Origin: Bacteroidota bacterium
GTDB taxonomy: Bacteria; Bacteroidota; Ignavibacteria; SZUA-365
Assembly (NCBI GenBank): GCA_029907355.1
Contig: JARYLZ010000032.1
Coordinates: forward strand, 1 to 32,122
Direction of reading: 5' to 3'
Length of the DNA stretch: 32,122 nt
Below are positions 13,250 to 31,038 of this stretch, one piece after another. Within the stretch, counting starts at the first letter, position 1, and the number at the start of each line of letters is the position of its first letter. The notes under the pieces are model-generated. The model was not told where the DNA came from. It ran no database searches and saw nothing but the letters and a program-made list of their open reading frames with translations. Made by a program: the position numbers and the translations under genes.

Positions 13250-14721
13250 CGACCCGCCGAGAGGCTGTACCGCAGGCAGTGGCCGACGATATTGTCCTGA
13301 ACAGCCCGGAACGGCGCATGGTCGCCTGCGAAGTTCTGCATGGTGATACTGAATACGAGGGGGACACCCTGCGGCGGGAGCACGTAGCCGGACAGCGAGC
13401 TCACACCGTTGAGCGTACCGGTCTTCGCGTGAACGTAGTCGGCACCTTCGACGTTTTTCAAACGCGACATCATCGTCCCGGATCCTGGTTGGGCCAGAGA
13501 TGCGATGAAACGCTTTGCCGCACTCGACCTGTACATGGTGCGGAGGAGGGATCCGATCGCGGAGACGCTCACGAGATTGCCGTGCGAGAGTCCGGAGCCG
13601 TCGACGAGCCGTATGCTTGCCGTGTCGATTCCCATGCGGTGAAAACAACTCGCCATGGCGAGCAGGCCGCATGCCCACGATCCCAGACCCTCTACCGCGA
13701 GTCCGATGGTCTTGAGGAGGCATTCCGCTGCGAGATTGTCGCTCGAGCGGTTCACCGCCGCGAGGACCTCGTCAAGCCCGCGTTCCACCGCGGCGATGGA
13801 GCGGCGCCGAATCGGGACTTTTCCCGTGGCCGCCGGTCGGTCCGGGGTCTCGATGCCGAATGCCCGCAGGGCGGATGCGAGCGTACAGGCCGCGTGCGCA
13901 GGCGGGTCCCACGTCGCGACGGTGACGGTCTTCAGCGTTCCTGCAGGGACGCTCCCTGTGATCCGGTGGTACGGTCGGCCCGGCCGATTCGTCCGGTTTT
14001 CCTCCCGGACGTCGATGGCTCGGCATGGGATGACGCGTGCCTCGACGCCGCGACCGGTCACGGCGTCGACGAGGATATCCGACCCTCGACAGCTGTCCGT
14101 ATCGACGGAGACGCGCTCACCCTGACGTGTCCCCCCGCGAAGGCGTACGGGGGATACATTCCTCTCGAAGGAAAGGGCGGTGACGGGTGTGCAGTAATCC
14201 TCGCCGACGTCTTCGAGCATCCACGCGGGGTTGTACAGAACGGAATCGAACGCGGTGAGATCCAGGCAGATCGCTGAAATCGTGGGTATACCGGTCTCAC
14301 TGACCGCTGTTGCGAGACGCTCGACGTCCTTCGTACTCAGCAAGGGGTCGCCACCCCCGATCACCCAGAGAGCGGGTGCACCCGATGAACTCTCGTCGAA
14401 AGCGAGCTCGGTGCGGAAACGGAAATCCGACGGAAGCGTCCAAAGAGCTGCGGCCGTCGCGAAAAGCTTCGCATTGGAAGCGGGCCGAAGGAGCACACGG
14501 CTGTTATGGGCGTACAGAATTCTCCCCGTCTCCGCCTCGGAAATTTCAACGGCGGCGATCACCTTGCGGAAGAGAGGGGTGGAAAGTTCCTTGTCCACCG
14601 CACGCTGCAAGCGTTCGAGCCGGGCCGTATCCTGGGCATCGACAGGTATATGTCGGAAGCAGAGGAGAACGGCGATCAGCACGATGTGCAAGACCGGTTT
14701 CACGGGTATGGTTTTCTTCAT
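13246..14721 (-). CDS. dacB: D-alanyl-D-alanine carboxypeptidase/endopeptidase, PBP4 (S13) family
   Basis: Periplasmic peptidoglycan hydrolase that trims or opens D-Ala cross-links (491 residues). An N-terminal signal peptide is clear: MKKTIPVKP, a hydrophobic core, then cleavage near VDAQ at about residue 30. All three active-site motifs of the family are present: SNAK (Ser82 nucleophile, Lys85), the SxN motif S327-D-N329, and KTG at 433-435. The large insert between the first two motifs is typical of S13 enzymes. The frame is open another 148 codons upstream, but that part is antisense to the divergent gene and lies outside the signal peptide. I therefore chose the ATG at 14721. The 5' end overlaps the divergent gene by 38 bases and the 3' end overlaps the preceding plus-strand gene. 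Confidence 0.92.
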   Translation of the reverse strand: MKKTIPVKPVLHIVLIAVLLCFRHIPVDAQDTARLERLQRAVDKELSTPLFRKVIAAVEISEAETGRILYAHNSRVLLRPASNAKLFATAAALWTLPSDFRFRTELAFDESSSGAPALWVIGGGDPLLSTKDVERLATAVSETGIPTISAICLDLTAFDSVLYNPAWMLEDVGEDYCTPVTALSFERNVSPVRLRGGTRQGERVSVDTDSCRGSDILVDAVTGRGVEARVIPCRAIDVREENRTNRPGRPYHRITGSVPAGTLKTVTVATWDPPAHAACTLASALRAFGIETPDRPAATGKVPIRRRSIAAVERGLDEVLAAVNRSSDNLAAECLLKTIGLAVEGLGSWACGLLAMASCFHRMGIDTASIRLVDGSGLSHGNLVSVSAIGSLLRTMYRSSAAKRFIASLAQPGSGTMMSRLKNVEGADYVHAKTGTLNGVSSLSGYVLPPQGVPLVFSITMQNFAGDHAPFRAVQDNIVGHCLRYSLSAGR

Positions 14722-16048
14722 CGGGATGATGGTGAGTTCGACGTTCTCCGCACCTGCCGTGGGGTCCGGTATCTCCGTGTGCAGAGAGGCACCCGAATGT
14801 GAAGCCGATAGTGCGAGGCGGAATGCTTTTACCCGCAAGCTCGCGGAGAGCTTCACGGAGGCGCAAATCCGGAGCATCTTATCGAATTTACCGCCGGCGT
14901 GCAACGTGTATGGGTACGACGTCGGGGATCTCGACGGGGACACGACCGCTGATCTCGTGCTCACCGTCGATGCGGAACCGGCAGGGAAATCCCTGCATGT
15001 GCGCTTCTTCCTGCAAAGGGGTGCACGCATGGATCTCGTGCGCGAACTCGAGCGGGCGTACCTGTCGGATCCCGTCGAGGTCGGCGTGTCCATCGATGAC
15101 GGTGTATGCCATGTGGCGAGGAAACGGGCCGAGTTCTCGTGGGAAATCGTCGGGTACTCTCTCAAGGGGAATGTTTTTCGGCAGATCGAACACTGGGAGA
15201 CGTATCGGCTCGCTCCGCCGTACCCGCCCGGTCTCGCCGTCGAACATACCAGCGACCGCCGATCGAATAGGACCGTCGAATCCTTTTACCGGCTGGGCGA
15301 TGAGCGGGTTCTTTCCCGGCACGAGGGAGGAATGGTTCCCGTCTTCCCGAGAAGAATGAAACTCCCACCCCTTCTCGACGACGCTATAGCCGACACGACC
15401 CCTCACAGCCTGACCCGGGGTCCCAGCAGCTGGTTCGGTCCGCTCGACTGCGGACTGCGAGTCACTGCACGCTACGACACGGCATCCATTACCATCATGG
15501 TCAGGGTGAACGATGATCGGATCGTCCGGGACAGCGCCGGTGTCGAGGGCGATCGCCTGGAACTCTGGTTCGATCCCGGCACCGAGCCTGTGATAACGCC
15601 GAGCGGAAAACCGAGGGATAAGGCTGGTTCTTCCGCGTTCGGTGTCCGCATCTCCATGAACGGCGGGGAACAGCCTGCGATTCTCGCACGGCAAGCAGAA
15701 AGGAAATCGAGAGACGAGCGTACCGCCTTGTTCGGGAAGGTTCATAGTACGGTGAACACTGTGGAAGCAGGCGTGTGGGACGTTTCGTGCGAAATCCCTC
15801 TCCGCATTGTTCGAGGGGTGTCCGGGGCGAAAACCTCCCGTTTCGCGGCATGCTATAGGGATATCGATTCCCGCGAGCATCCGGAGTGGGTGACCGTCAT
15901 CGCCACGGCGGAAGATTTCGATCCGGATATCCCGGCTACATACGGTTTCCTGACATTTTTCGAACCCGGCGAAATCCCTTATGAGTGGGAAGATTTCAAC
16001 CTCTTGCCCTTAGTGAGCCGTATGCGAAGTGCTGGGGTCATCCCTTGA
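14684..16048 (+). CDS. Secreted protein with an FG-GAP-like loop and a C-terminal CBM9-like domain
   Basis: A 454-residue predicted exported protein of unknown function. With the ATG at 14684 it begins MCKTGFTGMVFFIGMMVSS, a plausible signal peptide that ends near SAPAVGS. Residues about 76-95 contain GDLDGDTTAD, the Asp-rich calcium-binding pattern of FG-GAP/VCBS repeats. The last 210 or so residues look like a beta-sandwich of the CBM9/DOMON type (ITIMVRVNDDRIV, DRLELWFDPGTEP, ending TYGFLTFFEPGEIPYEWEDF), as seen in surface carbohydrate-binding proteins. ATGs at 14708 and 14726 would lose the positive N-region. The gene is divergent from dacB, with overlapping starts. Longer upstream readings are antisense to dacB and were not used. 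Confidence 0.7.
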   Translation: MCKTGFTGMVFFIGMMVSSTFSAPAVGSGISVCREAPECEADSARRNAFTRKLAESFTEAQIRSILSNLPPACNVYGYDVGDLDGDTTADLVLTVDAEPAGKSLHVRFFLQRGARMDLVRELERAYLSDPVEVGVSIDDGVCHVARKRAEFSWEIVGYSLKGNVFRQIEHWETYRLAPPYPPGLAVEHTSDRRSNRTVESFYRLGDERVLSRHEGGMVPVFPRRMKLPPLLDDAIADTTPHSLTRGPSSWFGPLDCGLRVTARYDTASITIMVRVNDDRIVRDSAGVEGDRLELWFDPGTEPVITPSGKPRDKAGSSAFGVRISMNGGEQPAILARQAERKSRDERTALFGKVHSTVNTVEAGVWDVSCEIPLRIVRGVSGAKTSRFAACYRDIDSREHPEWVTVIATAEDFDPDIPATYGFLTFFEPGEIPYEWEDFNLLPLVSRMRSAGVIP

Positions 16049-16539: not shown

Positions 16540-19500
16540 ATGTTGCAATTCATATCCAAACTCTTCGGGGGGAAGAAATCCGAGCGGGATATCAGGGAAC
16601 TTCTCCCCATTGTCGAACAGATCAATGCGCATTACGCGGAACTCCAGTCCCTGACGGACGACGAACTCCGGGCGAAGACTCAAGAATTCAAGAGACGGAT
16701 CGCCGACGCGACGGGCGACATCGAAAAGCGGATCGAGGAACTGCGCGAGAAACTCCGCTCGGACACGGAAGAGGAATTCGACCGCGTCGCCGTCCACGAA
16801 GAAATCGAGGAATTGGAGAAAGAACTCCACGAGACAATCGAGGAGACGCTGGACGAAATTCTCCCCGAAGCGTTCGCCGTCGTGAAGGATACATGCCGGC
16901 GACTTGTCGGAAAAGAATTTGAAGTGGTGGGGCACAAGGTCGTCTGGGACATGATCCCCTTCGATGTCCAGCTCATCGGCGGCATCGTCCTGCACCAGGG
17001 AAAAATAGCGGAAATGGCGACGGGGGAAGGGAAGACCCTCGTCGCTACGCTCCCGATCTACCTCAACGCCCTGCCGGGTAAAGGCGTCCACATCGTGACG
17101 GTCAATGATTACCTCGCCCGGCGGGACAGCGAATGGATGGAGCCGATTTTCGAGTTCCACGGTCTGAGCGTCGGCTGCATCCAGAATACGATGGATTCCC
17201 GCCAGCGACGGGAAATGTACGCCCGGGATATCACGTACGGCACGAACAACGAGTTCGGCTTCGACTACCTCCGCGACAACATGGTCGTGGACCCGGCCGA
17301 CATCGTACAGCGTCCGCACAACTACGCCATCGTCGACGAAGTCGACTCGGTCCTCATCGACGAAGCCCGGACGCCGCTCATCATCAGTGGTCCGGTGGGG
17401 GAGACCGAACATAAGTTCGACGAGATGAAACCGCGTGTCGAACGTTTGGTCAACGCCCAGAACGCCCTCGTCGCGAAAATCCTCGCGGAAGCGGAGCGCC
17501 TGCTCGCGGAGGGGAAGACCGACGAAGCGGGCGTTCTCCTGTACCGCGCCCAGCGGGGTCTCCCGAAGAACAAGAAACTCCTGAAGCTCTTCTCCGAGCC
17601 CGAGAACAAGGCCCTCGCCCAGAAGACCGAGTACATCTACCGCGCAGACAACGCACGGCGCATGCCGGAGATCATCGAGGAATTGTATTTCTCGATCGAG
17701 GAGAACACGCATACGGTGGATCTCACCGAAAAGGGGCGCGAATTCCTCGCCCCCTCCAAGGAGGAAGCGGATTTCTTCGTCCTCCCCGACCTCCCCTCGC
17801 AGCTCAGCCAGCTCGAGGCGCTGAACCTTCCCCCCGACGAGATGCAGCGGAAAAGGGACGAGCTCCAAAAGATCTACGCCGACCGGAGTGACCGCATCCA
17901 CACGGTACACCAGCTCCTGAAAGCGTATTGCCTCTACGAGAAGGATGTCGAGTACGTCATCCAGGACGGCAAGGTCATGATCGTCGATACCTTCACGGGG
18001 CGCATTCTCCCTGGTCGGCGGTATTCCGACGGTTTGCACCAGGCCATCGAGGCGAAGGAGAATGTCAAGGTCGAGTCGGACACCCAGACGCTCGCCACCA
18101 TCACCCTCCAGAACTACTTCCGTCTTTACCGGAAACTCGCGGGAATGACCGGAACAGCGGAAACCGAGGCTGCGGAGTTCTACGAGATTTACAAGCTCGA
18201 CGTCGTCGTCATCCCCACGAACAAGCCGTGCATCCGCATCGACCACGACGACCAGATCTACCGGACCAAGAGGGAGAAATACAACGCCGTCATCGACTTG
18301 ATCGAGGAGCGGAGAAAGAAACGGCAGCCGGTGCTCGTCGGGACGACGAGTGTGGAAGTCTCCGAAACCATTTCCCGCATGCTCAAGCGGCGGAACATCC
18401 CGCACAGCGTCCTCAACGCGAAACAGCACCAGCGCGAGGCGGAGATCGTCACCAACGCGGGACAGCCCGGCGTGGTGACCATCGCCACGAACATGGCGGG
18501 CCGCGGGACGGACATCAAGCTCGGCCCCGGAGTCCGCGAGGTGGGCGGGTTGCTCATTGTCGGGACGGAACGGCACGAGGCTCGACGCATCGACCGACAG
18601 CTCCGGGGACGCGCGGGTCGGCAGGGTGACCCCGGCGAGTCGATCTTCTTCATTTCCCTCGAGGATGACCTCATGCGCCTGTTCGGATCCGACCGCATTG
18701 CGCGTGTCATGACCCGTTTCGGCGCTCAGGAAGGGGACGTCCTCTCGCACCCGATCATCACCAAGTCGGTCGAGCGCGCCCAGAAGAAGGTCGAGGAGAA
18801 CAACTTCGGGATCCGGAAACGCCTGCTCGAGTACGACGACGTCATGAACCAGCAGCGCACGGTGATTTACAACCGGCGTCGGCAGGCGCTCACCGGCGAA
18901 AACCTCAAGGACGAGATCCTCGACATGCTCGACCAGTATGCCGAAGACCTCGCCGATCGACACTGGGAAGCGGGTACGCTCGACGAACTCCGCGAGGAGG
19001 TCCGTCGCAACCTCGTCGTCGACATCGCCTTCGACCGAGAGAAGCTCGACGTGGGAGGCGTGAAGGAACTCAAGGAGCAGATCGTAAAGGCCGCTACCGC
19101 ATTTCTCCAGAGAAAGGAACGCGAACTGACTCCGCCCGTGATGCAGCAGCTCATGCGCATCGCGATGCTCCAGGTCATCGATATCCGGTGGAAGGAACAC
19201 CTCCGCGAGATGGACGAACTCAAGGAGGGTATCCACATGAGGGCATACGGGCAGAAGGACCCCCTCATCGAGTACAAGAAGGAAGCCCTGGATATGTTCA
19301 TCCAGATGATCGGGATGATCAACCAGGAAGTGCTCGGGATGGTCTTCCGCCTCTACCCCGTCCCCGAGCAGTTGGTCAGAAGGCCGGTCGGCCCGCGGCC
19401 GCAGGACCTGCAGACGACGCACCGCGAAACGGCCGGCATGGGGTATCACGCGGACCGGCCGCCCGTTCCCGGCCAGCCGGAAGCGCCTGCGGAAGCGCAT

Positions 19501-19605
19501 GGCGAGAAACGTATGCCGGTCCGGAAGGAAAAGGAACCCGGGCGCAACGACCCCTGTCCATGCGGCAGCGGGAAGAAATACAAGAAATGTCACGGGGCGT
19601 CGTGA
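16540..19605 (+). CDS. secA: Preprotein translocase ATPase SecA
   Basis: Motor ATPase (1021 residues) that pushes unfolded preproteins through SecYEG. The first nucleotide-binding domain has ATGEGKT at 160-166 and DEVD in the Walker B region (IVDEVDSVLIDEARTPLIISGP begins near residue 266). NBD2 carries TNMAGRGTDI and the RQLRGRAGRQGDPG finger. The C-terminus ends in the zinc-binding SEC-C motif CPCGSGKKYKKCH (Cys1006, Cys1008, Cys1017, His1018). An insert of about 100 or more residues (about 300-450) sits in NBD1 before DVEYVIQDG, as in many FCB-group SecA proteins, which makes the protein longer than the E. coli form (901). The start at 16540 fits the conserved N-terminal helix. The ribosome-binding site is weak (AGGAACGG about 13 bases upstream). 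Confidence 0.97.
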   Translation: MLQFISKLFGGKKSERDIRELLPIVEQINAHYAELQSLTDDELRAKTQEFKRRIADATGDIEKRIEELREKLRSDTEEEFDRVAVHEEIEELEKELHETIEETLDEILPEAFAVVKDTCRRLVGKEFEVVGHKVVWDMIPFDVQLIGGIVLHQGKIAEMATGEGKTLVATLPIYLNALPGKGVHIVTVNDYLARRDSEWMEPIFEFHGLSVGCIQNTMDSRQRREMYARDITYGTNNEFGFDYLRDNMVVDPADIVQRPHNYAIVDEVDSVLIDEARTPLIISGPVGETEHKFDEMKPRVERLVNAQNALVAKILAEAERLLAEGKTDEAGVLLYRAQRGLPKNKKLLKLFSEPENKALAQKTEYIYRADNARRMPEIIEELYFSIEENTHTVDLTEKGREFLAPSKEEADFFVLPDLPSQLSQLEALNLPPDEMQRKRDELQKIYADRSDRIHTVHQLLKAYCLYEKDVEYVIQDGKVMIVDTFTGRILPGRRYSDGLHQAIEAKENVKVESDTQTLATITLQNYFRLYRKLAGMTGTAETEAAEFYEIYKLDVVVIPTNKPCIRIDHDDQIYRTKREKYNAVIDLIEERRKKRQPVLVGTTSVEVSETISRMLKRRNIPHSVLNAKQHQREAEIVTNAGQPGVVTIATNMAGRGTDIKLGPGVREVGGLLIVGTERHEARRIDRQLRGRAGRQGDPGESIFFISLEDDLMRLFGSDRIARVMTRFGAQEGDVLSHPIITKSVERAQKKVEENNFGIRKRLLEYDDVMNQQRTVIYNRRRQALTGENLKDEILDMLDQYAEDLADRHWEAGTLDELREEVRRNLVVDIAFDREKLDVGGVKELKEQIVKAATAFLQRKERELTPPVMQQLMRIAMLQVIDIRWKEHLREMDELKEGIHMRAYGQKDPLIEYKKEALDMFIQMIGMINQEVLGMVFRLYPVPEQLVRRPVGPRPQDLQTTHRETAGMGYHADRPPVPGQPEAPAEAHGEKRMPVRKEKEPGRNDPCPCGSGKKYKKCHGAS

Positions 19606-19625
19606 AGAAGACGGCACGGAGAGGC

Positions 19626-20360
19626 ATGGCCGCGACGTCCCGTTCACTCACCATCCCCTGCCCGGTCTGCCGGGAAGTGAACGATGTGCTCGCCGTTCGG
19701 TGCTCCGCGTGCGGCGCGTTCATCCGGGACCGCGTCCCGACGTTGAATTTCTTCACCACGCTGTGGAACATCTGCGAAACGCCCGTCGAAGGCTTGATTC
19801 GCGTGATCCGGAGCGAGCAGAAAAACTACGTCTACGTCCTTTTTTCTCTCGGCGGACTTTTCGCCGCTGTCGTGACGGCATCCCTCTCGCGGGCAGGGGA
19901 AACATCACTTCACCCTGCCGTTCTCTTCGCTGCTCTCTACGTCCTCGGTTTACCCGGAGGGATCATCCTCGGCACCGTGTTCTCATTCGTCCTCGATATC
20001 CTCATCCGGCGGGGAAGGATACGGCGCATCCCCTTCCGGACGGTTTCCGCCGTCGCCGCGTGGTCTTTCGCGCCGTACAGCGTCATGTCCGCTTTCCTCG
20101 TCCCCGTCCTCTTCGCCCTGTTCGGAAAACACCTGTTCGCGTGGGACCCTGGGCCGTGGTCGCTGAAACCCGGGCCGTTCTGGGTTGTTAGCACGCTCCT
20201 CGGAGCGGCCGTTCTCGCGTCGTTCCTGCTCACCGCTCGAGGGGTATCCCTCCTCGGTGTCGGTGTACAACGGGCGGTTGCCTCCGTTTTCGGAGCGCTC
20301 GTCATAGCCCTTCTTCTCGTCGCGGGTGCATCCGTATGCGTAACGCTGTTGGTCGTGTGA
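19626..20360 (+). CDS. Zinc-ribbon multi-pass membrane protein, Yip1-like
   Basis: A 244-residue protein with an N-terminal four-cysteine zinc ribbon (CPVC at 12-15 and CSAC at 26-29), then a short amphipathic stretch. About five hydrophobic segments follow (near 69-86, 97-126, 142-167, 185-203 and 218-243). The overall layout resembles bacterial Yip1-domain proteins, whose function is poorly known. I chose the ATG at 19626, with CGGAGAG just upstream. An in-frame ATG at 19589 would overlap the end of secA and add a short basic stretch before the ribbon. It lies 20 bases after secA and could be co-transcribed with it. No specific function is claimed; a role at the membrane is the only inference. 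Confidence 0.75.
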   Translation: MAATSRSLTIPCPVCREVNDVLAVRCSACGAFIRDRVPTLNFFTTLWNICETPVEGLIRVIRSEQKNYVYVLFSLGGLFAAVVTASLSRAGETSLHPAVLFAALYVLGLPGGIILGTVFSFVLDILIRRGRIRRIPFRTVSAVAAWSFAPYSVMSAFLVPVLFALFGKHLFAWDPGPWSLKPGPFWVVSTLLGAAVLASFLLTARGVSLLGVGVQRAVASVFGALVIALLLVAGASVCVTLLVV

Positions 20361-21215: not shown

Positions 21216-21668
21216 ATGACATTGAACGAACGAATCATGGCGGATCTCAAGGAAGCGCTCCGCGCAGGGAGAACCGTCGAACTCATGGCGCTCCGAAGCA
21301 TCCGCGCGGGGATCCTCGAAGTGGAGAAGAAACGTGTCGGCACCGTCCTGACGGAAGAAGACGAACTCGCCGTCCTCTCGGCGGCAGCGAAAAAGCGACG
21401 TGAGGCGATCGAACAATACCGCTCGGCGGGACGGGAAGACCTTGCCCGCAAGGAAGAGGAAGAACTCGCCGTGATTTCACGCTATCTGCCGCAACCGCTC
21501 ACGGACGAAGAACTCGAAACGCTCGCAACCGGCACGATCGCGCGTCTCGGTGCGGCAGGCATGGGCGATTTCGGCAAGGTCATGGGGGCGCTCATGAAGA
21601 CCGTGCGGGGAAGGGCCGAGGGAGAGCGTGTCCATGCGCTTGTCCGCCGCCTTCTCGGGGGAAGCTGA
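21216..21668 (+). CDS. yqeY: GatB/YqeY domain protein
   Basis: A 150-residue protein of the YqeY family, related to the C-terminal tRNA-binding domain of GatB; its cellular role is not settled. The family pattern is visible: LNERIMADLKEALRAG, MALRSIRAGILEVEKK, REAIEQYRSAGREDLARKEEEELAVISRYLPQ and the C-terminal GMGDFGKVMGALM. GGAGGG at 21203-21208 lies about 7 bases before the ATG at 21216, which decides this start over a TTG at 21201. Its stop codon overlaps the mutS2 start by one base, so the two genes are coupled. Confidence 0.9.
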   Translation: MTLNERIMADLKEALRAGRTVELMALRSIRAGILEVEKKRVGTVLTEEDELAVLSAAAKKRREAIEQYRSAGREDLARKEEEELAVISRYLPQPLTDEELETLATGTIARLGAAGMGDFGKVMGALMKTVRGRAEGERVHALVRRLLGGS

Positions 21669-24049
21669 TGCCCGACACTCATCCCTTCCAGGACGCCGCC
21701 GAGAAACTGGAACTCCGTTCCATCACGGAAACGATCGCGCGGTCCGCGCGTTCCGATTTGGGACGCGAGCATGTCGCCTCGCTTCAACCGACGAACGTGT
21801 TCGCCGAGGTGGCCGACGAGCTCGGGCGGGTAAGGGAATACCTCTCGCTCCTCGAGTCGACTGACATTCCCCCGCTCGATTCCCTTGACGATATCCGTCC
21901 CGCACTCCACCGCGCCTCCATTGCCGGGAGCATCGTTTCCGCCAAGGACTTCCACAATATCGCGCGTGCGCTCGAAACGTTTCGGAACCTCGCCGCCTTC
22001 TTCCGTAAACGTGCCGACCGTGTGCCGTTTCTGGCCGCTCTGACCGAAACGCTTTTCCACGATAAGCTCCTCGCGTACCACATCGACCGCGTCGTGGATG
22101 AGGAAGGGACAGTTCGAGACAGCGCCAGTGCGGAACTCCGTGCCATCCGACGGGAGATCATCGAGAAGACCGAACGGCTGCGCCGCAGGATGGAGGCGAT
22201 CCTCAAACGGGTTTCCCAGGAGGACATTGTCCAGGAGGAACTCGTGACCCTCCGCGACGGACGGATGGTCCTCCCGGTGAAGGTCGAACACAAGCGACAG
22301 GTGAAAGGCTTCATCCACAGCACGTCCGCCACCGGTCAGACCGTCTATATCGAGCCGACTGAAACGCTCGATCTCAATAACGACATCTGCGATCTGCAAT
22401 TCGCCGAACAACGGGAAATCTCCCGGATTCTCGCGGAACTGACCGAACGGTTGAGGCCGCACGTTCAGGATATTCTCCGTTCCCTCGAACGGTATGCGGA
22501 ACTCGACTCGCTGGCTGCACGTGCCACGTATGCAAGGGAGAACGGCTGCGCTATCCCCGCCGTCGCTCCGCAGGGGACCCTCACCCTTGTCCAGGCTCGT
22601 CACCCCCTCCTCCTTGCCCACAAACGCCGCGAAGATGTCGTACCGCTCGATCTCACCCTCGGCGACCCGGAGACGACCATCCTCATCACCGGTCCGAACG
22701 CCGGCGGGAAAAGCGTCGCGATGAAAACCGTCGGCCTCCTCGCGCTGATGGTTCAAAGCGGCATACCTGTCCCGTGCGACCCGGCGAGCTGTTTCCCCGT
22801 GTATACAGCGGTCGCCGTCGATATCGGCGACGAACAATCGGTCGAGAACGACCTGAGTACGTTCAGCTCCCATATCGAGCGACTTGCCCGCATCACGAGG
22901 ACGGCGGATGAACGGAGTCTGGTCCTCATCGATGAGATCGGGACGGGAACCGATCCGGCGGAGGGAAGCGCGCTCGGCGCTGCGATTCTCGAGGAATTGA
23001 CCCGAAAGGGTGCGCACGTGATCGCCACGACGCACCACGGCATGTTGAAAGCGTTCGCACACGAGCACCCCGCCATGCGGAATGCGGCGATGGAATTCGA
23101 TGCTCGTTCTCTCCTGCCGACGTATCGATTCCGAGCTGGGCTTCCGGGGAGCAGTTACGCCTTCGAAATCTCCAGGCGGCATGGGTTGGATCCCCGCATC
23201 ATCGATCGTGCACGGCATTTCCTCGCGACGCGGAGCGATGCGCTCGAGAACCTCCTCGCTGAGGTGGAGAGGCGCGCCCAAGAACTCGGGGATCGTGTCC
23301 GCGAATCGGAAAAGGCCGAAAGGGAGTACAGGAAAGCGGCGGAGGAATACGAACGCAGACTCGAGGCTTTTCGTCGCGAAGTCCGCGAGATGCGGCGGGA
23401 GGCCATGGTGGAAGCCGAACGCCTCCTGCAATCCGCGAATTCCGCCATCGAAAACGCCGTCCGGGAAATCCGCGAATCACAGGCCCGGAAAGAGGTGGTT
23501 CGCCGTGCCCATGAAGAGGTGGATGAGATCCGGAGAGCAGTCAGAGAAGGGTTGGAAGACCTCGCATTGGAAACACCCATTTCCCATCGCAGCGAGGACA
23601 GGGAGACTCCTTTCCATCCCGGAGACTTCGTCGTGATCGCCGGTGAGCCGGCGCGCATAGGCGTCGTCATCCAGGAACCGCGGGGGGGGAAAGTCGCGGT
23701 CGCGTTCGGTTCCGTGAAAATGCGTGTGGATATCGACCGTCTTGAACATGTGGAACCTCCTCCAACCTCGCATCCTATGCCTACTCTTTCTCCCACAAAC
23801 AATACGCGCAATGAAATCGATATCCGGGGCATGTATGGCGACGAAGCGGTCGCTTCCCTCGACACCTATCTCGCCGAAGCCTATGCCGCCGGGTACCGGC
23901 GCGTGGATATCATTCACGGGAAAGGGACAGGGACACTACGGAAACGAGTCCAGGAATTTCTCCGCACGATACCGTTCGTCGAGAGCTTTCGTCTCGGCGA
24001 GTGGAACGAAGGCTCCAGCGGGGTGACGGTCGTGTTTTTCAAAGAGTGA
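21668..24049 (+). CDS. mutS2: MutS2 family endonuclease / ribosome-splitting ATPase
   Basis: A 793-residue MutS2 protein, known in various bacteria as a suppressor of homologous recombination or as a factor that acts on collided ribosomes. After the core and lever helices come the ATPase Walker A motif GPNAGGKS (342-349), the Walker B region VLIDEIGTGTDP, and TTHHGMLKAFA. A long charged coiled-coil (about 535-625) and a KOW-like barrel (HPGDFVVIAGEP) follow. The C-terminal Smr domain has DIRGMYGDEA and HGKGTGTLR. The N-terminal mismatch-recognition domains of MutS are absent, as expected. The ATG at 21668 overlaps the yqeY stop (TGATG). Confidence 0.95.
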   Translation: MPDTHPFQDAAEKLELRSITETIARSARSDLGREHVASLQPTNVFAEVADELGRVREYLSLLESTDIPPLDSLDDIRPALHRASIAGSIVSAKDFHNIARALETFRNLAAFFRKRADRVPFLAALTETLFHDKLLAYHIDRVVDEEGTVRDSASAELRAIRREIIEKTERLRRRMEAILKRVSQEDIVQEELVTLRDGRMVLPVKVEHKRQVKGFIHSTSATGQTVYIEPTETLDLNNDICDLQFAEQREISRILAELTERLRPHVQDILRSLERYAELDSLAARATYARENGCAIPAVAPQGTLTLVQARHPLLLAHKRREDVVPLDLTLGDPETTILITGPNAGGKSVAMKTVGLLALMVQSGIPVPCDPASCFPVYTAVAVDIGDEQSVENDLSTFSSHIERLARITRTADERSLVLIDEIGTGTDPAEGSALGAAILEELTRKGAHVIATTHHGMLKAFAHEHPAMRNAAMEFDARSLLPTYRFRAGLPGSSYAFEISRRHGLDPRIIDRARHFLATRSDALENLLAEVERRAQELGDRVRESEKAEREYRKAAEEYERRLEAFRREVREMRREAMVEAERLLQSANSAIENAVREIRESQARKEVVRRAHEEVDEIRRAVREGLEDLALETPISHRSEDRETPFHPGDFVVIAGEPARIGVVIQEPRGGKVAVAFGSVKMRVDIDRLEHVEPPPTSHPMPTLSPTNNTRNEIDIRGMYGDEAVASLDTYLAEAYAAGYRRVDIIHGKGTGTLRKRVQEFLRTIPFVESFRLGEWNEGSSGVTVVFFKE

Positions 24050-24270: not shown

Positions 24271-25641
24271 GTGAGATTCGCGACACCGGGTTTTATCCTC
24301 CTGTGGTTGTTGGTTCTCCCCTCGAACGCGCAGGTCGTCCAGGTCCCTCTGGATGCGGGAGGGAAAATCATGTCGGTCGATCGCTCGCTCGAGCGGCGTA
24401 TCCGACTGTTTCCCGAGTACGAAGGGTTCACGGCGGCACGCCTTTTCCAAGCTCCCGATTCGTCTTTCATCCTCGAAATCGAAATGCTCCGGGATTCTGT
24501 GGTGTTCAGGGAGAAGAAGGTTCTCTCCCCGTTGGAAGCCGGGATGTTTCGGAAAGAGGTGACGGCAAGAATCCTCCGGGCGGCACCCGAGTTCCATTTT
24601 GACCAGGAGGGACGCCCGCGTTTCCTGATCGGAATGGCGGGACTGGCAATCGGGTTCTACAGCTGGGCGTTACCCACCATGCTCGGAATCACCGGGATGC
24701 ACGAAGATGAGGCAGCGGCCACGATCGCTGTCGGGACGGGCGGTATGGCCGCAGGTTTTCTCATTCCCTACCTCTGGACCGGGGATTCGCGCATGACGGC
24801 GGGGATGGCTACGCTTGCGCTCCAGGGGGGATATCGCGGGATTGTCGACGGCCTTCTCCTCGCCGGTCTCATCGACCCGTCGGCGGATGTACGAAGCGCC
24901 ATCACGGCGGAGTTCCTCGCGAGCGTTGGGGAAACGATCGGAGGTGCTGTCATTGCAGACAAGGACGGATACACGGCCGGCTCTGCAGGAATCATCGCGG
25001 CGGGAGGAAATCTCGGCCTCGGGGCGGGTATGGTCTCTGCTGTGCTTCTGGGTTGGACGGAAGGGAGTTGGGAATCGTATGGACGTGGAATTTCCGCTCT
25101 CGGCCTCGCAGGGACGGCGGGCGGATACTTCGCCGGCTCTCTCATGGCACGGGACGCCCGGTATACGGACGGCGACGTGGATGTTTTCTTTACTGCAGCA
25201 TTGCTCGGTGCAGCCATCCCCGTCTCACTCCTCGTCGCTGCCGAGGTCAAGGAGACAAAGTTGTACGGGGGTGCGGTGCTCGTCGGCTCGACAGCAACGT
25301 CGTTTCTCGCTCATCGGTTCCTTCGCACGCGGGATTTCAGCGCCAGTCAGGGACGCATCGTCGCCTTGTGCTCACTCGCGGGGGGACTCCTGGGAGGCGG
25401 GCTCGGGTATTTGCTAACGGGTGACGAGAAACCCGAACGCCTTATCGCACCGATGACGGCGGCGGGCTCCGCTGCGGGGTACGTCCTCATCCTTTCGAGT
25501 TTGGATGAGGAAGCCAGGGCGGCTTCTTCCTCGTGGTCCATTCACATCTCGCTCGTTCCTTCCGCACCGGATGCGATGACGAATTCCCATCGAACTTCGC
25601 TCGCTCTCGTCCCTTCCCTTTCCTTTCATGCCGTATTCTGA
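24271..25641 (+). CDS. Predicted exported multi-pass membrane protein, tandem paralogue A, unknown family
   Basis: A 456-residue protein I do not recognise. The GTG at 24271 (GGGGGAA just upstream) opens a signal peptide (MRFATPGFILLWLLVLPSNA, cleavage near residue 20). A soluble stretch of about 85 residues follows with VPLDAGGK, LERRIRLFPEYEGFTAARLF and FRKEVTARIL. Residues about 118-410 form many Gly/Ala-rich hydrophobic segments linked by short charged loops (GGYRGIVDGLLLAG, GSAGIIAAGGNLGLGAG, RYTDGDVDVFFTAALLGA). The C-terminal 35 residues look beta-stranded and end LVPSLSFHAVF, with a terminal Phe. The gene is followed by a clear paralogue, its TGA overlapping an in-frame ATG of that gene. 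A transporter or envelope structural role is possible; no function is assigned. Confidence 0.72.
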   Translation: MRFATPGFILLWLLVLPSNAQVVQVPLDAGGKIMSVDRSLERRIRLFPEYEGFTAARLFQAPDSSFILEIEMLRDSVVFREKKVLSPLEAGMFRKEVTARILRAAPEFHFDQEGRPRFLIGMAGLAIGFYSWALPTMLGITGMHEDEAAATIAVGTGGMAAGFLIPYLWTGDSRMTAGMATLALQGGYRGIVDGLLLAGLIDPSADVRSAITAEFLASVGETIGGAVIADKDGYTAGSAGIIAAGGNLGLGAGMVSAVLLGWTEGSWESYGRGISALGLAGTAGGYFAGSLMARDARYTDGDVDVFFTAALLGAAIPVSLLVAAEVKETKLYGGAVLVGSTATSFLAHRFLRTRDFSASQGRIVALCSLAGGLLGGGLGYLLTGDEKPERLIAPMTAAGSAAGYVLILSSLDEEARAASSSWSIHISLVPSAPDAMTNSHRTSLALVPSLSFHAVF

Positions 25642-25664
25642 TGAGAACCAGGGCCGAAGGGGGC

Positions 25665-27098
25665 ATGATGACACGGGAAACGATCGGAAAAAAAGGAAAT
25701 GCCTGCCCTTGTCGGATCCTTCGAGTTTTGTGCTTTCTTTGGATCGGGTTCGAGTTGGTTCTCTCCACGTGTGCGGTCGCTCAAGCGCAGGAGATTTCCG
25801 TACCCATCGACGCAGATGCTCGTTTCGAACGAATTACCCCCGATCTCGAGCGGGAAATTCTCCTCTTCCCTGAGTATCCCGATTTCCGCGACGCGCGTTT
25901 GTTCCTCCGTCCGGATTCGACGTTCGTCCTCATCGTCGAGTACGGCCGGAACGATTCCCTTCTTCACGTCGAGCGGCTTATGACGAAAGAGGAGGTTTCC
26001 GCTTTCCGGGCCGAAGTGACGGGGCGCGTGAGACGCAGGGTCCCGATAGCTTCGGTCGGTGGTGAGGGACGGACCGCATTTTTGGTGACGACGACGGGTC
26101 TCTCGACGTTTTTATACGGGCTGCTGGTTCCGTCCGTCCTGGAAATACAAGACGGGAATGAGAAAGTGGGGACGTACCTCGTCACCGCAGGTGCGGGGTT
26201 TTTCGTTCCATACCTGTTCACGCGCCGTGCCCGGGTGACCGATGCCATGGCGGTATTGGCTTTGCAGGGCGGTGTCCGCGGTGCACTCGATGGGCTTCTT
26301 GCCGCGCATTTCCTCGATATTGATGACGGTACCGCTGTCAGCGGGTTCGTGCTCGGTGCCAGCGTTGCAGAACTTCTCGCTGGTTACGGCATCGCGCAAG
26401 CCTCGCATATGGAAGCGGGAAAAGCGGGAATCATCAGCGTAGGCGGGAATTTCGGTCTCGGTGTGGGGCTGTCGGTCGCCGTGATGGTGGACCCGAAAGC
26501 TCTCGATAAGGGAAATGCGCTCGGCGCGACAGGAGCACTTATCGGAACGGCTGCAGGTTATGCATCGGCAACGCTCATGGCAAAGAAATCCTCGTACACA
26601 TCCGGTGATGTAGATGTCGTCTCGACGGCAGGCCTTCTCGGAGCGGGGTGGGGCTTGACATTCCTAACACACCTCGAGAGGGGGAACGAGCGGACTGTAG
26701 CATGTTTCTTGTCCACAGGCGCGGTGGCTGGTTTGACGGTAGGTCATTTCATCCAGCGTGAAAGGGATTTTCGAGGCGTCCATGGCACATATCTGCGGGT
26801 CGGCACAGCGGTTTCTTGGATAGCAGGGGCGGGTTTCGGGACCTTGCTCAGCCTCCACAACGATTACAACGAGTCGGCACGGATCATTCTCACGACGGCG
26901 AGTTCTTTGTCCACGATCACATACGTATGGATGGTGTCCTCGTTCGCGAACGAGGCGCAGAAGGCATGGGAAGAGAAGAATCCCGCGATCGGTTTCTCGG
27001 TATCTCCCGACTGGCGGACCGCTTCCGTGCTGACGTGCGAGGGGGGAAGAATGGTTCACCTCCGTTATCCGTGCGTGACCGTCCGTCTTCATTTTTAA
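25665..27098 (+). CDS. Predicted exported multi-pass membrane protein, tandem paralogue B, unknown family
   Basis: Paralogue of the preceding gene, with the same architecture: signal peptide (core VLCFLWIGFELVLSTCAVAQAQ), a soluble N-terminal domain, a Gly-rich membrane region and a short beta-like tail ending CVTVRLHF. Over the 82 aligned residues that start VPIDADARF here and VPLDAGGKI in paralogue A, I count about 34 identities by eye. Shared blocks are LFPEY-x2-F-x2-ARLF, GG-x-RG-x2-DGLL, AGII-x2-GGN-x-GLG-x-G and YT-x-GDVDV. The start could be the ATG at 25665 (477 residues) or at 25668; AAGGGGG lies just upstream of both. The ATG at 25641 overlaps the previous stop but would put a long polar stretch before the signal peptide. 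The pair is most likely one operon. Confidence 0.72.
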   Translation: MMTRETIGKKGNACPCRILRVLCFLWIGFELVLSTCAVAQAQEISVPIDADARFERITPDLEREILLFPEYPDFRDARLFLRPDSTFVLIVEYGRNDSLLHVERLMTKEEVSAFRAEVTGRVRRRVPIASVGGEGRTAFLVTTTGLSTFLYGLLVPSVLEIQDGNEKVGTYLVTAGAGFFVPYLFTRRARVTDAMAVLALQGGVRGALDGLLAAHFLDIDDGTAVSGFVLGASVAELLAGYGIAQASHMEAGKAGIISVGGNFGLGVGLSVAVMVDPKALDKGNALGATGALIGTAAGYASATLMAKKSSYTSGDVDVVSTAGLLGAGWGLTFLTHLERGNERTVACFLSTGAVAGLTVGHFIQRERDFRGVHGTYLRVGTAVSWIAGAGFGTLLSLHNDYNESARIILTTASSLSTITYVWMVSSFANEAQKAWEEKNPAIGFSVSPDWRTASVLTCEGGRMVHLRYPCVTVRLHF

Positions 27099-27505
27099 CA
27101 ATCGAAAGAACTCTCGCGGTCTGGTCCCGGAAATACATCCGCCCTGATTCTCTCCATTTTTTTCTTCCTCTATCACTGCTCTGTTTGCTTGTGCATCGCT
27201 CGTTGCCGAGATGAACCGGGAAGCTCAATACCATGACCACTCGGCAAAGCGAATCCGGAGAGAGAACGAATTTCTCCCTGGCGCGTTGATGTCGCCATTC
27301 TGTGAAAATGTGTAAAACCATCTGAACCCCTCCCGCAAACACGTTTTTCATATTCAGGTTCTGTTCCCAGCAGTGATCGGCTCTGTTTCTGGGATATTTC
27401 TGGGGGCAGGGTGCAGGAAAAGAATGCCTCATGAAACGGCACGGGATTTTGACCGAATCGGTGCACAATGGAAATTCAAGGAGACCTTGGAAAAGGAGGA
27501 GAAAC
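27099..27505. other. Intergenic region of 407 bases with an inverted repeat
   Basis: No convincing gene or promoter was found. An 8-base perfect inverted repeat, TTGCCGAG (27203-27210) and CTCGGCAA (27240-27247), is separated by 29 bases. Just downstream GGAGA and TCTCC can also pair across about 11 bases. A T-run lies near 27160-27170, upstream of these. The region may hold leader structure for the following gene, but I recognise no RNA family. Confidence 0.35.
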
Positions 27506-28402
27506 ATGCCTGCATGGTTTATTCCACCGCTTTTACCGACGTCGATGAGTGCCGGAAGATGCAGTGTGTTCCTTTCGACATGTCGTTTCCTCGGTCTGTC
27601 GCTGGTTCTCTCCTTGCCGCTCTGTGCCCAGAAACCCCTCTTTTCCTTCGGTCTTATCGCCGATATCGAGTGGGCGGATCGGGACGACTCGGCAGGGTGC
27701 TATCACCGAGCCGTTGCGGGGAAACTCCGAGAAGCGGTTCATGCCCTGAATTACGAACCGCTTCGTTTCGTCGTTCAGCTCGGCGATCTCATTTACGCAC
27801 GCGGAGATGAAGTGGTGCACGCACAGGAAAACATGGATGCGGCTCTTTCTGTATTGACCAAGCTCAAGGCACCTCTTTACCATGTCGCCGGCGAACATTG
27901 CCGAGAGGTGGGCATCGATGTCCTGAGGAAAAAATGGAAAGCGACACGTCTGTACCGCGATTTTACCGTCACCGGACTGCACGGTTGGCGGTTCGTCATC
28001 CTCGATGGGGCGGAGGAAGGGGATGGGTTTCTCGGGAGGGACCAGATCGCGTGGTTCGGGAAAACCCTCGCGCAAGCGATGAAAAAAAAAGAACGCGTCA
28101 TTGTTTTCTCCCATTACCCTCTCATCCGAGAAGCTGCCCCTTCCCGGCGGTTGAGCCGACCCGACACTTTGCTTGCGATTCTCGACTCGTTGCCGTGCGT
28201 TGCGGCGTGGATTGCCGGTCATGACCATGGAGGAGGTTACGCGGTGCGGAACGGTGTGCATCATATCACCATCCGTGCTCTCGTGGCATACCCCGAACGA
28301 GCGACATACTCCATCGTGAACGTCTTCGCGGACCGCATAGTGGAACTCGGATGCGGGTTCGAACCGGTGCGTGTGTGCTCGTTCGAACCAGTGAAGAAAT
28401 AA
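27506..28402 (+). CDS. Exported metallophosphoesterase related to ADP-ribose/CDP-alcohol diphosphatase (ADPRM), with altered metal sites
   Basis: A 298-residue calcineurin-like phosphoesterase closest in pattern to ADPRM, which splits ADP-ribose or CDP-alcohols at the pyrophosphate. Shared features are FGLIADIEWAD, a YHRAVAGKLREAV helix, FVVQLGDLIY, YHVAGEHC, WRFVILDG, VIVFSHYPL and GHDHGGGYA. Expected ligands D53, D94, H203, H239 and H241 are present. Position 55, usually Gln or His, is Glu; position 130, the near-invariant Asn of GNH, is also Glu (codon 27893-27895). The strong ribosome-binding site AAGGAGGAG, 6 bases upstream, sets the start at 27506. A hydrophobic stretch (SLVLSLPLCAQ, to about residue 42) is a likely signal peptide, so the enzyme probably works in the periplasm. 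A Cys at 40 lacks a good lipobox. Activity may be changed or lost. Confidence 0.82.
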   Translation: MPAWFIPPLLPTSMSAGRCSVFLSTCRFLGLSLVLSLPLCAQKPLFSFGLIADIEWADRDDSAGCYHRAVAGKLREAVHALNYEPLRFVVQLGDLIYARGDEVVHAQENMDAALSVLTKLKAPLYHVAGEHCREVGIDVLRKKWKATRLYRDFTVTGLHGWRFVILDGAEEGDGFLGRDQIAWFGKTLAQAMKKKERVIVFSHYPLIREAAPSRRLSRPDTLLAILDSLPCVAAWIAGHDHGGGYAVRNGVHHITIRALVAYPERATYSIVNVFADRIVELGCGFEPVRVCSFEPVKK

Positions 28403-29091: not shown

Positions 29092-31038
29092 ATGAGCGAC
29101 CACGTCGAGCAGGAAAGCGGAAAAGCGCGGATTCTCATCGTCGAAGATGAGGCAAGCGAAATCAATCTTTTAACTCACCGTTTGGCACAGAGAGGCTATG
29201 AAATATGCGGCGTGGCAGAAACCGGCCAGGAGGCGGTGGAGAAAACCGCCCAGCTCAAGCCCCATGTCGCCTTGATGGATATCCGCCTTCGTGGTCGAAT
29301 GGATGGGATCGAAGCTGCCCATATCATTCGTGAACGGTATCGAGTCCCGTGTATTTTCGTCACCGCCTACGATGACGACGAAACCCTCTGCCGGGCACGT
29401 GTCTCCGAGCCCTATGCATACCTGCTCAAACCATTCACGGACAGGGAATTGTATTGGGCGATCGAGATCGCGTTGTACAAGCACCGCATGGAACAGATCG
29501 TCCACGAGAAGAACTCCTGGTTTGCGACGACTCTTCGCAGTATCGGAGATGCATTGATCGCGGTCGATCCGCGGGGAAACGTCCAGTTCATGAACCCGGT
29601 CGCGGAAAACCTGACAGGGTGGAAACAGGCAGACGCGCTGGGGAGACCGGTTGCGGAAATATTCGACATCATCCACGAACAGACTCGGAAACCGGTCGAC
29701 TCGCCGGTTCACATCGTCCTTCGCACGAACGTCTCCGTCGGCGTGTCGAATGGCACCATTCTGCGCGCGAAGGATGGGACGGAAATCCCGGTCGACTCGT
29801 CGGCTTCCCCCATCAAGAACGAAGGGAAGGAACTCGTTGGTGCCGTCCTCATTTTCCGCGACGTGACGGAGCGGAAAAGGGCCCTGCGGATGATCAAGAA
29901 AAGCGAGGAACATTACCGCCAGCTCTTCGAGTGGAGTTTGGCAGGGGTGTACAAGGCGGACATGCAGGGCCGTATTCTCGACTGCAATGACGCGTTCGCT
30001 AAAATGTTGGGTTACGCCGAGCGCAAAGATGTCATTGCGGCGGGCGATCGCCCCTGGTTGGCTTCACCGGAAGACCGGAACGCTTTTCTCGAGAGGATAC
30101 GGACGAATCGTTCGACTGTCCAGGAAGAGCTTCGCTTCATGAGAAAGGACGGGACGACGTTCTGGGTCGTCCAGAACGCCGGCGTCCTCGACGATGCCGA
30201 GATCGGGAACGTCATCCTGGGGACGGTGATCGACATCACCGACAGGAAACGGATGGAAATGGAACTCCGCGAGGCGAAGGAACGAGCCGTCCAATCCGAT
30301 ACGTTGAAAACGTCCATCATCGCGAATCTCTCCCATGAAATTCGGACGCCGCTCAACATCATCCTCGGCTACGCGGGCGTCATCCGGACATTCCTCGCCG
30401 ACAGGATCAAACCCGAGGAAGAGGAATTGTTCGTGCACCTCGAGTGGGGAGCGAAACGCTTGATGAGGACGGTCGAGAACGTGATCAACGTCTCGAAAGT
30501 CCAGGCGGGGATGTATCAGTTCAGGAAAGAGATTCTCGATCTCTCAGCCGAGCTGCGCGCCATTGTCGAGGAAATGCGGCCTGCAGCGACCCAGAAAGGA
30601 CTCGAGTTGACGCTCAATTCGCCGGGTCCCGTCTACGTGTCTGCGGATAAGTATGCCGTCGACCAGGCGTTTCTCAACCTCCTGGAAAATGCGGTCAAGT
30701 TCACCCAGAAAGGGGGTGTCACCCTCGATATCTCCATGGACAACGCAACGGCGAATGTGATCGTCCGCGATACGGGGGTGGGGATTGCTCCGGAGTTCCT
30801 TTCCCACGTGTTCGGTGTCTTCCTCCAGGAAGAGAAAGGCTGTGCGCGGGCATTCGATGGGTTGGGCCTCGGTTTGCCGCTCGCGAAACGGTACATCGAG
30901 GGGAACGGCGGGACGATTCGGATCGACAGTGCGAAATGTTCCGGGACCTGTGTGACGGTTCGTCTTCCCCTCATCGATCTCGCATTTTCATCGCAGGGAA
31001 CGGAAGGCTCGAAGGATTCCCAAGGTATGTTTTCCTGA
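29092..31038 (+). CDS. Hybrid sensor: response-regulator receiver, two PAS domains, histidine kinase
   Basis: A 648-residue cytoplasmic signalling protein without membrane segments. The N-terminal receiver domain (about 12-130) has the acidic group E18-D19-E20, phospho-acceptor D63 (MDIRLRG), and K113 in LLKPF. PAS1 follows at about 140-265, ending FRDVTERKRA, and PAS2 at about 270-400, ending DITDRKRMEME. The HisKA box NLSHEIRTPLN puts the phospho-histidine at His415. The ATPase domain has NLLENAVKFT, DTGVGI and GLGLGLPLAKRY. The order REC-PAS-PAS-kinase suggests that phosphorylation of the receiver by another kinase tunes this one. No partner regulator lies nearby. The ATG at 29092 has no clear ribosome-binding site; the preceding 290 bases are AT-rich. 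Confidence 0.92.
   Translation: MSDHVEQESGKARILIVEDEASEINLLTHRLAQRGYEICGVAETGQEAVEKTAQLKPHVALMDIRLRGRMDGIEAAHIIRERYRVPCIFVTAYDDDETLCRARVSEPYAYLLKPFTDRELYWAIEIALYKHRMEQIVHEKNSWFATTLRSIGDALIAVDPRGNVQFMNPVAENLTGWKQADALGRPVAEIFDIIHEQTRKPVDSPVHIVLRTNVSVGVSNGTILRAKDGTEIPVDSSASPIKNEGKELVGAVLIFRDVTERKRALRMIKKSEEHYRQLFEWSLAGVYKADMQGRILDCNDAFAKMLGYAERKDVIAAGDRPWLASPEDRNAFLERIRTNRSTVQEELRFMRKDGTTFWVVQNAGVLDDAEIGNVILGTVIDITDRKRMEMELREAKERAVQSDTLKTSIIANLSHEIRTPLNIILGYAGVIRTFLADRIKPEEEELFVHLEWGAKRLMRTVENVINVSKVQAGMYQFRKEILDLSAELRAIVEEMRPAATQKGLELTLNSPGPVYVSADKYAVDQAFLNLLENAVKFTQKGGVTLDISMDNATANVIVRDTGVGIAPEFLSHVFGVFLQEEKGCARAFDGLGLGLPLAKRYIEGNGGTIRIDSAKCSGTCVTVRLPLIDLAFSSQGTEGSKDSQGMFS

Follow-up and report, generated by a model that had tools for sequence, protein, structure and literature searches.

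What kind of protein joins a glycine-rich, apparently helical membrane region to a C-terminus resembling an outer-membrane sorting signal? The question is raised by two adjacent genes, ORF1 and ORF2 (ORF, open reading frame), on the forward strand of contig JARYLZ010000032.1 of a Bacteroidota bacterium of the class Ignavibacteria (GCA_029907355.1). The whole stretch of 32,122 nucleotides analysed here (the window) is contig 99 of a 3.25-Mb, 173-contig genome. A preliminary description of this DNA had presented the two products as tandem paralogous exported membrane proteins of an unrecognised family, and had called the mixture of a helical middle with an outer-membrane type of end odd. The computations reported below establish a family with five internal repeats, a helical character, weakly hydrophobic helices and a β-signal-like tail, and the odd mixture proved to be real and family-wide. 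From these features we infer location, use of the β-barrel assembly machinery (BAM) and function: the pair probably represents a polytopic α-helical outer-membrane family delivered by a β-signal. The stricter statement, that its members are true ten-span α-helical outer-membrane proteins built of five tandem glycine-zipper hairpins and addressed to BAM by a C-terminal β-signal, seems to us about evenly balanced.

Architecture of the family

Both ORFs were confirmed in the sequence. Their mature proteins, of 436 residues each, were identical at 155 of 424 aligned columns (37%, E 2e-68), in agreement with the tandem paralogy proposed earlier, and the hand count of about 34 of 82 identical N-terminal residues came close to the computed 37 of 94 (39%). 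The motifs LFPEY..F..ARLF, AGII..GGN.GLG.G and YT.GDVDV and the terminal Phe, all of which had been pointed out before, are present in both proteins and recur with variation in the relatives. The family also remained unrecognised: neither ORF matched Pfam or NCBIfam at E up to 1, and the best hit of the PDB sequence searches reached only E 0.42. The Pfam glycine-zipper profiles gave no match over the cut-off for ORF1, ORF2 or 12 members of the family, and their best hit among ten wider relatives (PF13441 in L075, E 0.19) was below it. The best Pfam match among the 12 members, YtxH in two of them (E 0.038), was too weak to be believed, as was prePAAR_I in L064 (E 0.007, below the cut-off). No significant sequence match to a known transporter was obtained, and a PDB fold search with the low-confidence model described below had no match at E up to 0.001. 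We found no description of the family in the literature, where a nameless family can be searched for by concept only, which can hardly prove absence. Thus, neither a strong match to a known family nor a middle foreign to membranes, the two outcomes on which the preliminary description would have fallen, appeared.

Behind the N-terminal domain (N-domain), an AlphaFold2 model of the two window proteins placed ten helices. The corresponding segments are 20-25 residues long, with cores containing 17% Gly, 14% Ala and only 3.7% charged residues, which bears out the hydrophobic, membrane-like middle noted before; a soluble helical solenoid was rejected on the same low charge. Profile-profile comparison with hhalign aligned five hairpins in register over 54-59 columns, with E values from 6.6e-11 (strongest) to 2.9e-3 (weakest). 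The best of ten reversed controls reached E 8e-4, and the pair of hairpins 1 and 2 is unconvincing on its own. On this comparison, the ten predicted helices are five homologous glycine-zipper hairpins, a new finding. Hairpin 2 carries polar sites inside its helices: position 193 is His in 45, Gln in 6 and Asp in 5 of 60 members, and position 221 is Glu in 50 of 60.

The body is followed by a tail of about 45 residues, in which all 60 members have P430 and 56 of them P448. F or W is the last residue in 37 of the 44 members outside a clade named f24, whose 16 rows were counted separately; among 219 neighbouring ORFs from crude ORF calling, each 150 residues or longer, this holds for 13. The seven other members, two of them at a contig end, were all kept as misses. 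In the 37 F/W enders the last residues alternate strictly, being hydrophobic at -1, -3 and -5 in 100, 95 and 100%, and at -2, -4 and -6 in 3, 3 and 0%; Pro stands at -9 in 32 of them and Tyr at -3 in 20. By its sequence, the tail would therefore be a C-terminal β-signal or closely resemble one. Two distant members (L091 and L102) without an N-domain match retain the helices and the tail, so that these two parts go together.

At the other end, export was as anticipated. Gln occupies the column after the cleavage-like site in 56 of 59 filled rows, preceded by Ala or Ser in at least 35 of 60, and the family appears to be exported through a cleavable Sec signal, as judged from this motif and the h-region. 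The N-domain, of about 94 residues, was modelled alone from the two window sequences with a mean predicted local distance difference test (pLDDT) of 82 and a predicted template modelling score of 0.69, in the order β-β-α-β-β-β-α and a last short strand. Neither the best Foldseek hit (E 0.044) nor the leading VIA-align hits, a designed protein at Z 5.5 and a COMM domain at Z 4.9, were strong enough to name its fold. The domain had no significant match in Pfam or NCBIfam, a hit at E 0.009 in one of 32 N-domains being weak and not believed. Its profile matched in 44 of 149 genomes of the class, family members counted. When 24 ORFs with the domain were inspected, several had a remainder that resembled a β-barrel in sequence character, and nine ended in F (L138, L140, L141, L143, L146, L147, L148, L150 and L151); a Pfam scan of six N-domain-only proteins yielded one weak barrel match, below the cut-off (PF13505 in L065, E 0.0017). 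That the domain thus heads barrel-like proteins speaks for its export and for a connection with the outer membrane.

Genes with the N-domain were also seen to cluster in groups of two to four neighbours (L137, on contig 4 of G012, 29500-38500; L138; L139; L140). The hairpin-like or barrel-like C-terminal parts of these clustered genes suggest an undescribed outer-membrane module with frequent local duplication. Two members of the family itself, from G155 and G147 (L068 and L072), are longer, at about 700 residues, with an extra region of some 200 residues before the N-domain and a Cys-containing, signal-like start.

Membrane of residence and proposed mechanism

The most serious competitor of an outer-membrane location is a polytopic protein of the usual inner-membrane kind that exports its N-domain and has its tail in the periplasm; the likeness of the tail to a β-signal would then arise otherwise, for example from docking to a partner in the outer membrane. 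Ten hydrophobic spans with so little charge in their cores would fit such a protein, and conserved polar residues such as the His/Asp and Glu inside hairpin 2 are what a transporter might have. We used a Hessa-type predictor of the apparent free energy of membrane insertion (DGapp). This was above 0 in 586 of 600 family helix segments; among the ten lowest segments of each mature protein, none fell below 0 in 46 of 60 proteins, one in 13 and two in one, with means of 1.11 to 2.84. In contrast, seven inner-membrane controls (SecY and three Na/H antiporters of the same genome, and YdhK, WzxC and WcaD of E. coli) had five to seven segments below 0 and means of -1.00 to -0.02, and 20 further E. 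coli carriers had six to nine such segments and means of -1.37 to -0.35. The latter were picked by hand among annotated carriers of roughly ten spans or more, leaving out other membrane proteins of the same regions (for example secD, secF, dsbD, cyoE, yicG, eptA and yjdF). The ranges of the 60 family members and the 27 controls did not overlap. With the same predictor, the two segments of the outer-membrane lipoprotein SlyB scored +2.6 and +3.7, and in Wza only the signal region gave a segment with a score of 4 or less. All helical outer-membrane segments examined in PMC11845990 have DGapp above 0.

The distribution of charges pointed the same way. If the N-domain is exported, an inner-membrane protein would have loops 1-2, 3-4, 5-6, 7-8 and 9-10 in the cytoplasm. 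These loops contain 131 Lys plus Arg in 2297 residues, against 238 in 2302 for the loops on the N-domain side, which are the richer ones in 54 of 60 proteins; the excess is therefore opposite to the positive-inside rule. The 60 proteins are mutually related, and the sign test and binomial values overstate their independence. Hence neither the positive-inside charge nor the insertable helices of an inner-membrane transporter were found, and the F/W ends on a strictly alternating strand and an N-domain common to barrel-like proteins also speak against such a protein. We regard this explanation as unlikely.

A second explanation is that the middle is a β-barrel of Gly-rich strands, so that the proteins would be ordinary outer-membrane proteins with a periplasmic N-domain. 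The C-terminus and the company of the N-domain would agree with this, and the low confidence of the model leaves room for it. However, Gly-Gly pairs at spacing 4 numbered 654 against 302 in shuffled sequences (z 26.3), with z 8.8 at spacing 8 and -0.8 at spacing 2, and conservation showed power at 100 degrees (p 0.001) and nothing above chance at 160-180 degrees. The autocorrelation of hydropathy at lags 1 and 2 was -0.05 and -0.12 in the family and -0.10 and -0.13 in two inner-membrane controls, against -0.16 and +0.01 in 14 barrel-like relatives chosen by eye; the family thus lacks the two-residue alternation of the latter. Polar residues that could line a barrel are also scarce, and the segments run unbroken for 20-25 residues. 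Neither the periodicity of conservation, GxxxG spacing nor the low-confidence model indicated the body of a BAM-assembled barrel; we conclude that the middle is predicted to be helical and not made of strands, and consider the barrel improbable. Equally improbable is that the helices attach to the membrane on its periplasmic face, or assemble into exported helical structures, and do not fully span the outer membrane: the weak insertion scores and two short N-domain proteins with an apparent single glycine-zipper hairpin and no β-signal (L137 and L145) would be consistent with it, but the conserved tail with its β-signal and ten evenly spaced segments of membrane length argue against it.

Several observations weigh against a helical outer-membrane protein sent to BAM. 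Confidence in the helices of the AlphaFold2 model is low (pLDDT under 50), since no more than two sequences were usable; the mean hydropathy peak lies at 80-85 and not at 100 degrees; and small residues also have power at 155-180 degrees, which favours the barrel and could be an effect of the period-4 Gly spacing. The parameters of the DGapp predictor were entered by hand, and polytopic inner-membrane helices can also have positive DGapp (PMC11845990). On the Wimley-White octanol scale, with values likewise entered by hand, several family helices score as transmembrane (medians from -5.7 to +1.6, near or below zero for most helices, as an inner-membrane protein would have); the family falls between SlyB and the control YdhK, and the scale is less decisive than DGapp. 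By net loop charge the sidedness is weaker, with 42 proteins for and 14 against it. In the tail, position -6 is mostly Ser (19 of 37) and Gly in 4 of 37, the canonical β-signal being GXX(aromatic)X(aromatic) with Gly at -6 (PMC13067283), and in clade f24 the protein runs on for 3-37 residues beyond the strand in the 15 rows, of 16, that showed the pattern. Finally, Wza, a known helical outer-membrane protein, is BAM-independent (PMC13067283).

The cell has the machinery that a helical outer-membrane protein with a β-signal would call for. The genome (G000) has Omp85/BamA-type proteins, the best of them at E 1.6e-38, and one match to YfiO/BamD at E 3.3e-18; there are also 95 matches to Por_Secre_tail (PF18962), the tail family of the type IX secretion system, at E up to 0.001, not all of them over the cut-off; from these matches the host is a diderm that has BAM and probably a type IX secretion system. 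We propose that the protein would be exported by Sec and cleaved by signal peptidase, as suggested by the h-region and the conserved site of a small residue and Gln. Because its ten glycine-zipper helices would be too weakly hydrophobic for capture by the inner membrane, the chain would pass into the periplasm, where BamD/BamA would read the alternating strand ending in F or W of the two-strand tail as a β-signal, and the tail would direct the five hairpins into the outer membrane. The N-domain and the tail would remain in the periplasm, on the same side since ten is an even number of spans, and the tail strands of different subunits may together close a small barrel, or they may pair with some other barrel. 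As to function, we favour a membrane-stabilising scaffold, a role that has been proposed for SlyB rings, or a channel, which might be formed about the conserved polar residues of hairpin 2 (His/Asp and Glu).

By current descriptions nearly every outer-membrane protein is a β-barrel, helical ones being known, and a protein of many helices that bears a BAM-type signal would violate this rule. If our proposal is right, polytopic helical proteins are within the reach of BAM or of its partners, and the helices have been tuned in evolution to escape inner-membrane insertion; the family would then offer a natural test of how Sec discriminates between inner-membrane and outer-membrane helices, and would raise the question of what BAM can insert. 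Even with the location wrong, there would stand a family, and an N-domain common to barrel-like proteins, without significant match in Pfam or NCBIfam.

Distribution, gene models and neighbours

With ORF1 alone as query, matches were found in 10 of 61 genomes (its own and 60 relatives), and of 391 sampled genomes of the class, 60 matched a 12-row profile. In six (G012, G036, G040, G082, G156 and G348) the match lies mainly in the N-domain, which leaves the family in 54 of 391, our own count after removal of N-domain-type matches. In a sample of the phylum, 22 of 395 genomes matched, four by the N-domain only (G040, G082, G156 and G582), and the helical part was present in four genomes outside the class (G531, G609, G624 and G683). 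Two scans of a collection of 84,980 genomes and one of viral contigs gave no confirmed relative.

The preliminary description had held the duplication not to be recent, and the phylogeny agreed. In a maximum-likelihood tree of 60 members (61 rows before an ORF cut at a locus end, duplicating the second G001 copy, was dropped), each ORF had its own partner in a tandem pair of another genus (G001), ORF1 grouping with the first copy and ORF2 with the second (support 100/96 each), and the single copy of G002 fell outside both groups. Since the two ORFs group separately with the two copies, the tandem duplication is, by this tree, older than the split between the genera. Separate tandem arrays of two to three copies occur in family f24 (G155, G175, G281, G362 and G365). 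Most other genomes that bear the family carry one copy, so the pair is not obligatory, and the question raised earlier of whether the two genes always occur together is answered in the negative; an always-paired two-gene system was rejected. No third copy was found in the same genome by protein search (E up to 10) or with the N-domain profile (E up to 1).

The features of the two genes are collected in Table 1. The listed start of ORF2, GTG 25533, makes it overlap ORF1; the ATG codons at 25662/25665 lie about 20 nt past the ORF1 stop and are preceded by a GAAGGGGGC stretch. Because of this short distance, the two genes are probably one operon. A promoter and terminator scan gave a result near chance.

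Table 1. Positions in the window of the predicted features of ORF1 and ORF2
Feature	Position	Strand	Basis
ORF1, first paralogue, GTG start, 456 aa	24271..25641	+	ORF list; family-wide alignment
ORF1 signal peptide, cleavage-like site SNA/Q	24271..24330	+	sequence; conserved Q column
ORF1 N-domain with LFPEY..F..ARLF, beta/alpha fold	24331..24612	+	AlphaFold2 model, mean pLDDT 82
ORF1 hairpin repeat 1 (helices 1-2)	24604..24786	+	hhalign repeat comparison; low-confidence model
ORF1 hairpin repeat 2 (helices 3-4), D193 and E221 inside helices	24787..24966	+	hhalign
ORF1 hairpin repeat 3 (helices 5-6), AGII..GGN.GLG.G	24967..25152	+	hhalign
ORF1 hairpin repeat 4 (helices 7-8), YT.GDVDV at start	25153..25329	+	hhalign
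ORF1 hairpin repeat 5 (helices 9-10)	25330..25512	+	hhalign
ORF1 beta tail ending PSLSFHAVF, beta-signal-like, P430 invariant	25501..25638	+	alignment; end-residue test
ORF2, second paralogue	25662..27098	+	ATG 25662 or 25665 likelier start than GTG 25533
ORF2 signal peptide, cleavage-like site AQA/Q	25662..25787	+	sequence
ORF2 N-domain	25788..26069	+	alignment; N-domain model
ORF2 ten-helix glycine-zipper region	26067..26957	+	alignment to ORF1
ORF2 beta tail ending PCVTVRLHF	26958..27095	+	alignment; end-residue test

The pair is preceded by a mutS2-like gene (21668-24049) and directly followed by a metallophosphoesterase-like gene (27431-28402, + strand; PF00149, E 1.4e-5) with a hydrophobic, signal-like segment near its N-terminus. 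Further downstream, 29092-31038 (+) encodes a hybrid protein in which a response-regulator receiver is combined with two PAS domains and a histidine kinase. Three ORFs at 13279-16048 and 19499-20191 (+), of 332, 605 and 230 residues, had no Pfam match (E up to 0.001); other long ORFs overlap with them and may be coding in their place. A comparison of 20 fetched loci and the window, based on crude ORFs and requiring a cluster in three loci, disclosed shared neighbours beyond the family itself only among the loci of f16 and of f24; one such neighbour is common to the two.

Comparison with known systems

The outer-membrane pores of the Wza and VirB10 types resemble the family in having helices with DGapp above 0 (PMC11845990), but they are oligomeric barrels to which each subunit contributes one or two helices, and the helical exceptions listed in PMC11845990 likewise have one or two per subunit. 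Pfam and PDB sequence searches detected no relationship of the family to them.

SlyB of E. coli shares with the family two Gly-rich segments of low insertion score, which we take to form a helical glycine-zipper hairpin. It differs in having a single hairpin and a lipid anchor, and no sequence relation to it emerged; ORF1 and ORF2 had no Pfam glycine-zipper match. The transmembrane complexes that SlyB forms in the outer membrane are rings (PMC13067283).

The β-barrel proteins assembled by BAM have in common with the family the signal peptide, the C-terminal strand ending in F or W and, in the barrel-like relatives, the N-domain. In contrast, the predicted body of the family is helical, and each chain would supply only about two strands.

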